Shown here in pieces: positions 24,962-29,504 of a stretch of 35,824 nucleotides of DNA. The DNA lies in the NCBI GenBank assembly GCA_030828175.1, contig JAURDB010000010.1, forward strand, positions 1-35,824, in the 5' to 3' direction. Within the stretch, counting starts at the first letter, position 1; each line of letters opens with the position of its first letter. The stretch is from Flavobacteriales bacterium. GTDB lineage: Bacteria > Bacteroidota > Bacteroidia > Flavobacteriales_D > Sanyastnellaceae. The notes beneath the pieces are model-generated. The model saw nothing but the letters and a program-made list of their open reading frames with translations. It had not been told where the DNA came from and ran no database searches. A program made the position numbers and the translations under genes.

Positions 24962-26575
24962 GTGTCGAGTTACCAGATTTTGGACGCCATCGCGGCATTG
25001 CCTGAATCCCATATCGTCCGCACGTGGTGGGAAGGCAGGTTGGTGAGCCCTGGAAATGGGAGCTGGCCACAACGCCCCGATCAAGCCGTCCTGGATGCGA
25101 TGAGAAGCGGGGTGGGAGGGAATCCCCGAGGGGCCCTTGTTGAATCCTGCATCCGCCAGCAGTATCAAACGTCGGGCATTGAGCCGCCCCAAAGGCTGTC
25201 TCTTCTGGCGACACCAGATTGTCGCACGGTGACCACCGGGCATCAATTGTGTCTAGCCGGCGGCCCTGCATTTACCTATTACAAAATTCGGACGGCCATC
25301 GCGTTGGCCGCTCGGTTGGAAAAGCGCTGGGGAACACCGGTACTTCCCGTCTTTTGGATGGCTTCCGAAGACCATGATTTCGACGAAGTGAGTGGCCTTT
25401 GGAGCGGCGAGGAGTGGGTCCGTTGGAATCCTTCGGGGCCTGTTGGCGGTCCCGTTGGCAGGATGTCCACAGACGGCGTGGCTTCCCTCCTCAAGGGTTG
25501 GTTGGACGGCATGGGAAGCAGCGAGGGTTGGGACTCCTTGATCCGGGAATCAGGAAATGGGGCAACGCTTGCCCAAGCCATGCGCCACTGGATCCATGCT
25601 CTTTTTCCCAATGGAGATGTCGTGGTCATAGATGGGGACGTTCCCGAGCTCAAATCGCCGTTTGTTTCTGTGATGCGCAAAGAGGTGGAAGAAGCCTTGG
25701 TTCATCGGGCCGTTTCGGAAGTGGACCAGACACTGTCCTCCATGGGTTTTGCCCCGCAAGTGCATGTGCGGGAATGCAACCTGTTCCACATGGACGACCT
25801 AGGCCGCCACCGCCTGGCTGCCGAAAATGGAGGTTGGTCTGCATTGGGAGGCAAGAAGTGGGCATCGAAGACAGATCTACTCGCAGCACTGGAATCCGAT
25901 CCGCATTCATTCTCCCCGAATGCGCTTTTGCGGCCGGTGTATCAGAATTTCCTGCTGCCCGATGTGGCGATGGTGGGGGGAATGGCGGAGATCGCATATT
26001 GGATCCAGCTGACAGGCGTTTACGAGCGGCTGGGCATGACCCAACCCGCTTTGGTGCCGCGGGATGGCGCTTGGGTCCTTCCACAGCGCTGGTCGCGGCT
26101 GCTGGAAAAAACGCACCTGGGGTCAAACGACCTGGGGCGACCATGGACGGAATGGGAATCCGAGGCCATCGCTGCATCCGGTCCTCCCGACGTAAAGGCC
26201 TGGAGACAGTCCGTTGACGAATCGGCGAATCAAAGCCTGGAAAACTTCTCGAAGCTGGATGCTTCCCTGGCCGCGAGCGTGCAAGCCGCACGTGCCAGAA
26301 TCCATGGGGTGTTGGATAAGCTGGAGCAACAGGGGAGGAAGGCTGTAAAAAGGAAAGAAACCGAAGCTTTGGCGCGGTTGAGCCGCATTCATGGCTGGGT
26401 TCAGCCCATGGGTGTAAACCAGGAACGCATCACAAGTTTCATCCAACTCTCCGTGGAGTGGGACAGGGCGGAGAACGCGCCCCTCACCCTCAGCGAGTCC
26501 TTGTCCAGATCGATGCTTGAGGGGCACGGAGAGGGAGATTGGCGTCCACTTGTGCACTTGCTTCGACAGGATTGA
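24962..26575 (+). CDS. bshC: Bacillithiol biosynthesis cysteine-adding enzyme BshC
   Basis: 537 residues with a GTG start. BshC hallmarks are clear: VTTGHQLCLAGGPAFTYYKI near residue 95, PVFWMASEDHDFDEV, then WVRW, VVVIDGDVPELK, VHVRECNLFHMDD, PNALLRPVYQNFLLPDVAMVGG and a late coiled-coil helix (about 415-455, ARARIHGVLDKLEQQGRKAVKR). In BshC the final step adds cysteine to glucosaminyl-malate to give bacillithiol, the thiol cofactor used for redox balance and detoxification. bshA and bshB are not in the window. The length is typical. No in-frame ATG lies upstream in a plausible position, so GTG 24962 is chosen. Confidence 0.93.
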   Translation: MSSYQILDAIAALPESHIVRTWWEGRLVSPGNGSWPQRPDQAVLDAMRSGVGGNPRGALVESCIRQQYQTSGIEPPQRLSLLATPDCRTVTTGHQLCLAGGPAFTYYKIRTAIALAARLEKRWGTPVLPVFWMASEDHDFDEVSGLWSGEEWVRWNPSGPVGGPVGRMSTDGVASLLKGWLDGMGSSEGWDSLIRESGNGATLAQAMRHWIHALFPNGDVVVIDGDVPELKSPFVSVMRKEVEEALVHRAVSEVDQTLSSMGFAPQVHVRECNLFHMDDLGRHRLAAENGGWSALGGKKWASKTDLLAALESDPHSFSPNALLRPVYQNFLLPDVAMVGGMAEIAYWIQLTGVYERLGMTQPALVPRDGAWVLPQRWSRLLEKTHLGSNDLGRPWTEWESEAIAASGPPDVKAWRQSVDESANQSLENFSKLDASLAASVQAARARIHGVLDKLEQQGRKAVKRKETEALARLSRIHGWVQPMGVNQERITSFIQLSVEWDRAENAPLTLSESLSRSMLEGHGEGDWRPLVHLLRQD

Positions 26576-26586
26576 CCCTACTTTCG
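26558..26586 (+). promoter_or_regulatory. Promoter of the HAD gene (-33 TTG and -7 TACTTTCG)
   Basis: TTG at 26558-26560 is followed by an 18-base spacer and TACTTTCG at 26579-26586, one mismatch from TAnnTTTG. This is the best two-part promoter in the window. It predicts a leader of about 60 bases, unlike its neighbours, and lies across the end of bshC. Confidence 0.6.
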
Positions 26587-26610
26587 TATCTTCTTTAGAG
26601 CGAATAGGTA

Positions 26611-26653
26611 ATGGTCCTGTTCCGTCGAATCCCATCGCACAAAGCAGGACCAT
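26611..26653 (+). promoter_or_regulatory. Leader hairpin that sequesters the HAD start codon
   Basis: ATGGTCCTG (26611-26619) is a perfect 9-bp inverted repeat of CAGGACCAT (26645-26653), with a 25-base loop. The 3' arm ends on the A and U of the start codon at 26652. The 5' arm itself begins with an ATG in another frame. Folding would hide the true start, so it could act as a translation switch. Confidence 0.55.
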
Positions 26654-27101
26654 GGAAAGCAAGAAAGACCTTTCACTTCAAGCGGCGAAAGATGCCGAAG
26701 GCCGCGCCGCCTCTCCCCAACTTCCCGAGCACGTCAAGAATTTCCTCATTGACATCGATGGGACCATCACCGAGGATGTGCCCAACGAGGAGCCGGAGCG
26801 CATGTCCACGTGCGTCCCATTTCCAGATGCGTTGGCTACCCTCAACGGATGGTTTGACGAAGGGCACGTCATTACGTTTTTCACCAGCCGCACGGAGGAT
26901 CATCGGGAGGTGACGGAAGCATGGCTCGAAAAACACGGATTCAAGTACCATGGATTGCTGATGGGAAAGCCCCGTGGAGGCAATTACCACTGGATTGACA
27001 ATCACGTTGTCCGGGCCACTCGCTATGTGGACCGCTTCACCGAACTCGTCAAGACCACGAGGGAAATCGAAGTCTTCAAGGGGAACGAGTCACAAGGGTA
27101 A
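26652..27101 (+). CDS. HAD-like phosphatase family protein (often labelled phosphoheptose isomerase in Bacteroidota)
   Basis: 149 residues from ATG 26652. HAD motif I is LIDIDGTI, with the nucleophile and acid Asp pair; motif II is TFFTSR; motif III is the Lys in LMGKPRGGNYHW; motif IV is WIDNH. A polar N-terminal helix precedes motif I. The strongly conserved KYHGLLMGKPRGGNYHWIDNH block belongs to a small Bacteroidota family whose common label, phosphoheptose isomerase, is not supported by any isomerase motif here. A phosphatase or nucleotidase is more likely; the substrate is unknown. The gene has its own promoter and a hairpin at its start. It overlaps ruvX tail to tail by 12 bases. Confidence 0.8.
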   Translation: MESKKDLSLQAAKDAEGRAASPQLPEHVKNFLIDIDGTITEDVPNEEPERMSTCVPFPDALATLNGWFDEGHVITFFTSRTEDHREVTEAWLEKHGFKYHGLLMGKPRGGNYHWIDNHVVRATRYVDRFTELVKTTREIEVFKGNESQG

Positions 27102-27515
27102 TCCTCCTCGGGAATCGAGAAACCGCTGAAGGATGAGGGCAGCCGCTACCTTGTCCAGTTGCCCTTTCTCTCGCCGCTTGGACTTGCGCATTCCGCTTTG
27201 GACCATGGCCAGACCGGCCTCCCGACTCGTGTAGTCTTCGTCCACCAGATGGACGGGGAGCCCAGGGAACCATTTTTCCAGGCGAGCGGCGAACCCACGG
27301 ATGTCCTGGGTGCTGTGGGCCGATGTGCCGGATATGAGACCGGGGATGCCCAGTACGAGACCGGCACAAGGTTCGGCGCTGACCAAATTTTGAACCACTT
27401 CTCGGATTTCGGCGGGAGAACAGGTGCCTTCTGGAGAAGCGATCAAGGCGCCTGAATCCGTCACGGCAATTCCAATTCTGCGGGATCCGTAGTCAAATGC
27501 GATGAACCGGGCCAT
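27090..27515 (-). CDS. ruvX: Putative pre-16S rRNA nuclease / Holliday junction resolvase RuvX (YqgF)
   Basis: 141 residues. RNase H-like fold with motif I FDYGSRRIGIAVTD (catalytic D8), the LVLGIPGL strand, motif VDEDYTSREA, and the last acidic motif DKVAAALILQRFLD. YqgF/RuvX trims the 5' end of 16S rRNA precursors and was earlier proposed as a resolvase. The length is typical. The start ATG 27515 has a -7 box four bases upstream. It is divergent from dapD with 40 bases between starts, and convergent with the HAD gene. Confidence 0.92.
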   Translation of the reverse strand: MARFIAFDYGSRRIGIAVTDSGALIASPEGTCSPAEIREVVQNLVSAEPCAGLVLGIPGLISGTSAHSTQDIRGFAARLEKWFPGLPVHLVDEDYTSREAGLAMVQSGMRKSKRREKGQLDKVAAALILQRFLDSRGGLPL

Positions 27516-27555: not shown

Positions 27556-28413
27556 ATGGAACAAGCATTGGAATCAGTGGGGGCCATGTCAGCGGATTGG
27601 AGAGAGGTCAGGGAAAGAATCGAGACGGCTTGGGAGGACCGTTCGCTCTGTGAACGCAAGGAAACCAGAGAGGCTGTAGAGGCCGTTTTGGCTTCTTTGG
27701 ATGCAGGCCAATTGCGGTGTGCCGAGCCCCTCGGGTCAGAATGGCAGGTCAACGAATGGGTCAAAAAAGCCGTCGTCTTGTATTTCCCCATGCGGGAGAT
27801 GAAGGTGCAGGAGGTGGGGCCGTTCCAATTCCACGACAAGATGGCGCTCAAGCGCAACCACGCTGAGGCCGGCGTTCGCGTGGTCCCCCATGCCATCGCG
27901 CGATATGGCGCCTTCCTCGGAAAGGGCGTGGTCATGATGCCGAGCTATGTGAACATTGGCGCCTATGTGGGCGAAGGAACCATGGTAGACACATGGGCCA
28001 CCGTCGGGTCTTGTGCCCAGATTGGAAGTGATGTGCACCTGAGCGGAGGCGTCGGCATTGGCGGTGTCCTGGAGCCCCTTCAGGCGGCCCCCGTCATTGT
28101 AGAGGATGGAGCATTCATTGGCTCCCGGGTGATTGTGGTCGAAGGCGTTCGGGTGGGCCGTGAGGCCGTGCTCGGAGCAGGGGTGGTCTTGACTTCGAGT
28201 ACCCCCATCATCGATGTGACGGGAAGCGAACCGGTGGAATACAGAGGAGCGGTTCCGCCGCGGTCCGTTGTGATTCCTGGAACCAGGCAGAAGTCGTTCC
28301 CAGCCGGTGAATATGGCGTGCCCTGCGCTTTGGTCGTCGGCCAAAGAAAGGAAAGCACCGACCGCAAGACTTCACTCAACGAAGCCCTGCGGACCCACGC
28401 AGTGGCCGTATGA
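27556..28413 (+). CDS. dapD: 2,3,4,5-tetrahydropyridine-2,6-dicarboxylate N-succinyltransferase
   Basis: 285 residues. An N-terminal helical domain (residues 1-95) is followed by a left-handed beta-helix of hexapeptide repeats (YGAFLGKGVVMMPSYVNIGAYVGEGTMVDTWATVGSCAQIGSDVHLSGG is split here into its repeats). Family marks: NEWVKKAVVLYFPMREM, DTWATVGSCAQIG, GVGIGGVLEPLQAAPVIVED, and IPGTRQKSF. DapD succinylates tetrahydrodipicolinate in lysine and meso-diaminopimelate synthesis, so it feeds both protein and peptidoglycan. It overlaps the GT9 gene by four bases (ATGA), forming an operon. Confidence 0.93.
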   Translation: MEQALESVGAMSADWREVRERIETAWEDRSLCERKETREAVEAVLASLDAGQLRCAEPLGSEWQVNEWVKKAVVLYFPMREMKVQEVGPFQFHDKMALKRNHAEAGVRVVPHAIARYGAFLGKGVVMMPSYVNIGAYVGEGTMVDTWATVGSCAQIGSDVHLSGGVGIGGVLEPLQAAPVIVEDGAFIGSRVIVVEGVRVGREAVLGAGVVLTSSTPIIDVTGSEPVEYRGAVPPRSVVIPGTRQKSFPAGEYGVPCALVVGQRKESTDRKTSLNEALRTHAVAV

Positions 28414-29504
28414 CATTCGCGGGCCGGCTTTCACTGGCGGAGGATGCACGGATCATTCTGCTGCAACCCGCGTTTTTGGGAGATGTGGTGCTCTCCACGG
28501 CCTTGCTGGAGTCATGGCATCGGGCCCATCCACGCCACCCAATTGAAATGGTGGTCAGACAGGAGGCAGCAGGTTTGTTGAGGAATCACCCCTTTCTGGA
28601 CAAAGTGCATGTCTGGGACCGAGGAGGTTGGGGCAAATACAGTCGGTTGATTGGATTGGCGGGAAAAGTGAGGGCAAGAGAACCTGAACTTGTCATCAAC
28701 CTGCACCGCTATGCCAGCATGGCCCTTTTGGGACGTCGGTCAGGGGCTCCGCATCATGTCGGGTTTACAGAAGGGACCCGATGGCATGCAGGAAATGCCC
28801 GGTTGAAGCCCCATTCTTGGGGTGACGGTCGTCATGAAACAGAGCGGAATCACGCATTGGTACAGGATTACATCGGTGATTGGAATGCCGAACGGGATGT
28901 TCCGAGGCTGCATCCTGCTGCATCCGATTGGTCTGCGGCTGCGGCCTTCCCCCAAGACGCCCTCATTTTGGCGCCTTCCAGCGTTTGGGCCACCAAGCGG
29001 TGGCCATCAGAACGATGGAGTGCCCTGGCAGATGAGTGGGTGACCTCGGGGCAGGATGCACCGGTGGTATTGCTCGGTGGGCCGGCGGACCGGGAGTTGT
29101 TGGAGGCAGTGAGCCAAGGTTGTCAGAAAGCCAAGCCCCTCGTGGTCGCAGGGACATTGGATTTGCTCGGGTCAGCGGCATTGATGGGAAAGGCGCGCGC
29201 CGTTGTGAGCAATGACAGCGCGCCATTGCACATGGCAGGTGCCATGAATGTGCCCGTAGTCGGGGTGTTCTGCAGTACGACTCCCCGTTTTGGTTTTGGC
29301 CCATTGCCCACCATGATGAAAGAGGGGAGGGCCGCCGTTGTGGAGATCGGGGAATCTGAAATGGATTGTAAACCGTGCGGGCCACATGGGCACGGTCAAT
29401 GTCCCATGAAGCATTTCCGTTGCGGTCTCCATGTCGACCACAAGGCGGTGTGGGATGCCGTCCTTTCGGTCAGCAGCCCTCGACGCGGAAACCCGACTCC
29501 TTGA
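28410..29504 (+). CDS. Glycosyltransferase family 9 protein (ADP-heptose:LPS heptosyltransferase-like)
   Basis: 364 residues, translationally coupled to dapD. GT-B fold: N-terminal RIILLQPAFLGDVVLSTALLESW, where FLGDVVLSTALL is the GT9 GD motif, then VINLHRYASMALLGR and PHHVGFTEG. The C-terminal half has LAPSSVWATKRWPSERWSAL, VVLLGGPADRELL, and the nucleotide-sugar motif SNDSAPLHMAGAMNVPVVGVF. Family members add heptose to lipopolysaccharide core; the exact sugar is not set by sequence. A CKPCGPHGHGQCPMKHFRC segment near the C-terminus has the Cys pattern common in this family. The last 35 bases overlap the small secreted gene on the opposite strand. Confidence 0.9.
   Translation: MTFAGRLSLAEDARIILLQPAFLGDVVLSTALLESWHRAHPRHPIEMVVRQEAAGLLRNHPFLDKVHVWDRGGWGKYSRLIGLAGKVRAREPELVINLHRYASMALLGRRSGAPHHVGFTEGTRWHAGNARLKPHSWGDGRHETERNHALVQDYIGDWNAERDVPRLHPAASDWSAAAAFPQDALILAPSSVWATKRWPSERWSALADEWVTSGQDAPVVLLGGPADRELLEAVSQGCQKAKPLVVAGTLDLLGSAALMGKARAVVSNDSAPLHMAGAMNVPVVGVFCSTTPRFGFGPLPTMMKEGRAAVVEIGESEMDCKPCGPHGHGQCPMKHFRCGLHVDHKAVWDAVLSVSSPRRGNPTP

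Follow-up and report, generated by a model that had tools for sequence, protein, structure and literature searches.

A covarying leader element that may control translation of a HAD phosphatase-like gene in uncultured Flavobacteriales

Introduction

Bacteroidia generally initiate translation without Shine-Dalgarno pairing, and initiation depends instead on upstream adenines, low structure and the lack of nearby AUGs (PMC9976891, PMC6847099). A start codon that is folded into a hairpin raises a question in these bacteria: is the hairpin one of the many that chance produces, or does it belong to a leader that controls the gene? We address it for a small gene of the haloacid dehalogenase-like (HAD) superfamily in a stretch of 35,824 nucleotides from a Flavobacteriales bacterium (contig JAURDB010000010.1 of assembly GCA_030828175.1), hereafter the window, and in its relatives. 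The features discussed below are listed in Table 1.

Table 1. Features of the HAD locus (positions in the window)
Feature	Position	Strand	Description and basis
bshC, bacillithiol synthesis cysteine-adding enzyme	24962..26575	+	NCBIfam TIGR03998 and Pfam; adjoins the HAD gene upstream
Bacteroidota-type promoter	26558..26586	+	TTG 26558-26560, 18-nt spacer, -7 box TACTTTCG 26579-26586
P1 hairpin, near the 5' end	26603..26621	+	stem AATAGG 26603-26608 / CCTGTT 26616-26621; loop TAATGGT 26609-26615
P2 5' arm: ATGGTCCTG and two more bases	26611..26621	+	inverted repeat and folding; overlaps the P1 loop and the P1 3' strand
Upstream AUG in the P1 loop	26611..26613	+	alignments and table of upstream open reading frames; invariant in all carriers of the element, no conserved frame
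P2 3' arm: bases before the HAD start codon and its first two bases	26643..26653	+	folding; pairing kept in relatives
Small HAD-superfamily phosphatase-like gene	26652..27101	+	149 aa, DxDGT motif; Pfam PF24694

Results

The gene, its promoter and its leader

The product carries HAD motif I as FLIDIDGT, the DxDGT signature of HAD superfamily hydrolases. In a Pfam profile search its match to PF24694 lies just above the cut-off (29.1 bits against 27.7), and there are weak matches to capsule-biosynthesis phosphatases in NCBIfam and the PDB.

The initial annotation had assigned to this gene a two-part promoter and a leader, and both are borne out. TTG-N18-TACTTTCG is one of only two matches to TTG-N17..19-TAnnTT(T/C)G in a pattern scan of the window, and its -33 part lies inside the 3' end of bshC. 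A TAnnTT(T/C/G)G box is kept at all 13 loci of the genus where it can be read, ending 4-16 nt before the hairpin that we call P1 and 41-65 nt upstream of the HAD start. Since the position of the -7 box upstream of the start is conserved in relatives, the leader is real. The assembly of the window's genome is fragmented (252 contigs).

The reported hairpin is unremarkable in the window

The stem that drew attention to this locus is present as described: ATGGTCCTG (26611-26619) and CAGGACCAT (26645-26653) are perfectly complementary over 9 bp and enclose a loop of 25 nt. RNA folding lengthens it to 11 bp by adding the pairs 26620 U-G 26644 and 26621 U-A 26643; this fold, P2, has a further inner helix and an energy of about -22 kcal/mol. 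Folding also agrees with the proposal that the start codon lies partly in the 3' arm, with positions 26652-26653 paired at a probability above 0.8.

On the evidence of the window alone, the P2 hairpin is unremarkable and chance would yield one. The window has four perfect inverted repeats with arms of at least 9 and loops of 3-30, against 4.3 +/- 2.4 expected from first-order Markov sequences, and several other genes of the window have equally negative folding energies around their starts. As such repeats are no more frequent than chance predicts, the significance of P2 rests on the relatives and not on the window. Two further genes of the window, at 27515 (-) and 28410 (+), have starts paired with upstream sequence beyond shuffled spacers (uncorrected p-values of 0.03 and 0.01, respectively, among 29 genes).

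A smaller hairpin covaries in relatives

The aligned leaders of the genus share a conserved block resembling AGGYAATGNYCCTTTC soon after the -7 box, followed by a spacer of variable length and the start codon. The initial annotation overlooked P1, a smaller conserved unit that is a competitor of the reported stem. It consists of six pairs and a loop of 7 nt with an invariant AAUG, and lies shortly after the TAnnTTTG promoter box. The two genera with the element supply 15 distinct sequences, in which 96.7% of the cells of the P1 stem are paired and there are nine double-sided changes, at four of the six pairs (3-21, 4-20, 5-19 and 6-18). The covariation score is 0.448, against 0.174 for shuffled and at most 0.276 for slid alignments, and none of 500 shuffles reaches it, so that P1 shows the compensatory changes above controls that mark a covarying RNA. 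In the window, three pairs of the stem depart from the usual form, GGAAGG/CCTTTC, and the stem is still fully paired. When cells depart from Watson-Crick pairing, they are mostly G-U wobbles (15 of 18), as an RNA would have. Within the loop, the core AAUG is unchanged in every sequence carrying the element.

The start region pairs with the element in most relatives

If the reported structure matters, related genomes should preserve it by compensating changes, and relatives do retain the start-region structure, either by such changes or in another register. ATGGTC pairs with GACCAT, with varying extensions, in the window and in four relatives (L003, L004, L005 and L006), ATGAC with GTCAT in three (L010, L013 and L018), and GGCAATG with CATTGCC directly before the start in two (L011 and L012), the start codon itself being mostly unpaired in L011. 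Locus L014 pairs GGCAATGG with CCATCGCC, with one mismatch. At L007-L009 the direct P2 pairing is lost, and CTTTC and GTGTTG pair with GAAAG and CAACAC flanking the start codon. The spacer between element and start is otherwise free to vary, and the pairing is nonetheless kept. Counted in the P2 start register, five pairs have changed on both sides, among them a GC pair that became AU and a UA pair that became CG next to the start.

Positions -8 to +4 have a mean probability of 0.59 of being paired with the 5' element, which drops to 0.16 for shuffled spacers, with a Fisher combined p of about 6e-11 over 12 dereplicated loci; the test was designed after inspection of the leaders and the spacers are short, so this p-value is strong but not exact. 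A comparable test on 29 genes of the window gave a combined p of 0.30, and among 102 HAD genes lacking the element eight reach p<0.05. On average, exchanging the start region for that of a relative weakens the pairing with the element. The two loci of a second genus have weaker start-region pairing and favour P1.

Throughout the genus, the helix at the start region draws on one strand of P1 or on its loop; in the window the shared bases are 26611-26621. Because these bases are shared, P1 and P2 are mutually exclusive, and the leader has, in silico only, two exclusive structures, as a translational riboswitch would, one of them hiding the initiation site. The equilibrium probability of P1 is 0.000 in the window, 0.12-0.31 at L007-L009, and 0.54 and 0.90 in the second genus. 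Even species in which P1 is the minor form conserve it, a hint that P1 matters, either during transcription or when bound. A pseudoknot, with P1 formed and its loop paired to the start, can be drawn in nine sequences (ATGNY/RNCAT) but is disfavoured, since by rough hand estimates of energy the nested P2 is preferred. We also discarded mimicry of the 16S tail by CCTTTC, a sequence that is not kept in the window, in L003 or in the second genus.

The element follows the HAD gene and occurs once per genome

The HAD gene is present in 15 of the 17 genomes of the window's genus, and the P1 element at 14 of these 15 loci. The species are well separated and the tree is star-like; across them an 18-nt core is 82% identical, against 51% at third codon positions of the HAD gene. 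One genome of the genus (G009, locus L015) has the HAD gene without the element, with a different upstream sequence and an apparently very short leader. The element is absent from the other genera examined, many of which also have apparently very short leaders, with the exception of the second genus. Its two genomes (G058 and G059) carry GGGCAATGATCCC some 36 nt upstream of the HAD start and a different upstream gene, which indicates that the element travels with the HAD gene and not with bshC. In these two, GGG/CCC replaces the AGG/CCT of the P1 stem, and the loop is retained as CAATGAT. In another genome (G015, contig C15, about 28057-28453; L016/L018) the HAD gene is apparently split by a frame change and an in-frame TGA, either an assembly error or a pseudogene.

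The exact core motif has essentially one copy per genome. A covariance model scores the HAD leader at 28.6-33 bits and no other site in the genus above 20.9, which amounts to one strong match per genome, and it found no second strong copy in the genus genomes. The idea of a wider regulon was abandoned, the best extra matches in the family falling mostly within long open reading frames or on the strand opposite to them. A loose motif-plus-CATG pattern had only scattered, chance-like matches among 399 genomes of the order, and a search of window positions 26400-26900 against Rfam 15 (E up to 5) returned a single chance snoRNA match far below its cut-off. At one other locus (L119; G005:C1:57068-57081), an apparent Nudix-type gene begins at AGGCAATGATCCTT and has the ATG of the motif as its own, shortly after a TACTTTTG box; this is likely chance.

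Six loci of other genera (L178, L183, L184, L186, L188 and L189; genera g4, g5, g15, g16 and g17) have another dyad, AGTGT-N7-ACACT, upstream of the HAD gene. These genomes have 9-17 such sites each, against 1-5 for the reversed control, and the window's genome has none; from its sequence distribution, the dyad looks like that of a transcription-factor regulon that includes the HAD gene. Just before the HAD promoter at L188 (genome G032), the dyad forms part of a 17-bp hairpin with a T run behind it, a combination that looks like an intrinsic terminator.

Upstream AUG and temperature

The ATG noted in the 5' arm of the stem is confirmed, and it is invariant across the whole set. It lies 29-41 nt from the HAD start, with all three frames represented and peptides of different lengths. 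The suggestion of control by upstream translation, in the form of a conserved peptide, thus finds no backing in the relatives, and we rejected attenuation or coupling by a leader peptide, given that the table of upstream open reading frames has no conserved frame or peptide.

Control by temperature, also put forward initially, fares no better. In folding of seven species the pairing around the start is nearly constant from 5 to 45 C, and the accessibility of positions -8 to +3 is nearly flat; in the window the P2 stem persists in silico at 65 C. With no temperature response in folding, the leader is not a simple thermometer.

Discussion

Our results describe a lineage-specific, covarying leader element whose role, judging from its sequence evolution, is most likely translational control by alternative pairing. 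P1, the start-region pairing, the mutual exclusivity of the two and the position of the promoter are demonstrated by comparative computation. We infer that the start-region pairing would lower translation. With moderate confidence, we propose that the HAD leader is a bistable translational leader in which the start is sequestered by default in P2 and opened when P1 is favoured. The HAD mRNA would begin with this two-state leader. In one state, the leader would fold close to its 5' end into P1, a hairpin of 6 bp whose 7-nt loop bears AAUG; in the other, the P1 loop and one P1 strand would pair with the bases around the start codon in the longer P2 helix. In the window P2 is predicted to be strongly favoured at equilibrium, so that HAD translation should be low by default. 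A factor favouring P1 by acting on the conserved loop, such as a protein, a small RNA, a ligand or the 30S subunit, would then free the start codon; slow co-transcriptional refolding that favours P1 would be another route of release. Control of the leader by a ligand, a protein or a small RNA is possible.

The main rival to this two-state leader is an operator: a transcription factor would bind the conserved P1 dyad (nAGG-N7-CCTn) as DNA, just past the promoter, and the pairing of the start region would be incidental. The dyad lies 4-16 nt past the -7 box, a position usual for repressors, and the same gene has in other genera of the family the dyad AGTGT-N7-ACACT, also with an N7 spacer and enriched genome-wide there. 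But operators usually have conserved half-sites, a variable spacer and further sites in the genome, and the P1 dyad departs from this pattern: its spacer is the most conserved part, its half-sites covary, and the stem dyad is not enriched over a reversed control in the genus genomes. The G-U wobbles of the stem also speak for RNA, and an operator leaves the complementarity to the start region unexplained. We consider this explanation unlikely, although a single-site regulator may act at the dyad. It is improbable, too, that the structure is static, setting a low translation rate or shielding the 5' end from decay without regulated switching. Such a role would suit the very stable and temperature-insensitive P2, and the relative that has the gene without the element, but the maintenance of two exclusive helices and of a conserved unpaired loop exceeds what a static block needs.

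Other explanations start from the loop itself. Its AUG could be a real initiation site near the 5' end, where a ribosome would melt P2 and expose or tune the HAD start. The AAUG does not vary, even in sequences where it takes no part in P2, its distance from the promoter is typical of a short leader, and the upstream reading frame stops across the HAD start, as ATGA, in three species. Against this, frame, length and peptide are unconserved, and many of these reading frames enter the HAD gene out of frame; codon 2 has an invariant third base and variable first two, unlike coding sequence, and the covariation of the P1 stem is left unexplained. We think this use of the AUG unlikely. A more tentative idea, and a doubtful one, is a minimal two-state leader in a lineage that initiates without Shine-Dalgarno pairing: a decoy AUG in the 7-nt loop would compete with the true start, pairing of loop and start would silence the gene, and the start would be released once the initiating ribosome, or a factor mimicking it, recognises the AUG of the loop. 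If this were true, the leader would sense initiation capacity. Finally, that warming melts the stem and frees the start codon is very improbable. The codon does sit in a stem, as in a thermometer, but neither the flat accessibility in seven species nor the window stem at 65 C shows melting in the physiological range, and we dropped this reading.

The two-state leader that we favour has partial counterparts among known systems. Translational riboswitches and other alternative-helix leaders likewise have two exclusive helices in the 5' leader, one of them over the initiation region. The HAD leader differs in being only about 20-50 nt long, in covering the start codon itself where others cover a Shine-Dalgarno sequence, and in matching neither an Rfam family nor a described aptamer family; it would act like a translational switch, and membership of the riboswitch class would take an aptamer that binds a metabolite directly. 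Candidate 5' leaders of Flavobacteria, Flavo-1 RNA among them (PMC2864571, PMC9723704), are also structured RNAs upstream of genes in the same order, but neither Flavo-1 nor any other Rfam family matches this region, and the HAD element occurs once per genome and is tied to one gene. The rpsU (bS21) leader of Flavobacteriales (PMC9976891) is another case of leader-based control of initiation in a mostly non-Shine-Dalgarno group. It uses an extended Shine-Dalgarno sequence, whereas the GG-rich strand of the HAD leader varies in sequence (it reads AATAGG in the window), and the HAD gene is unrelated to rpsU. RNA thermometers such as ROSE and fourU also place the initiation region in a hairpin, but the HAD leader lacks their temperature response in silico.

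The conserved nearby AUG and the covered start of the HAD leader fit control rather than efficient initiation. They run against the published pattern of open starts without nearby AUGs, and the covarying hairpin and the complementarity to the start recur in about 15 species. The element is found in two related genera of uncultured Flavobacteriales, where the conserved leader marks the HAD phosphatase as a putatively regulated gene. How leaders switch translation in Bacteroidia is poorly understood, and the HAD leader offers a compact, testable case of control at the level of the start codon.
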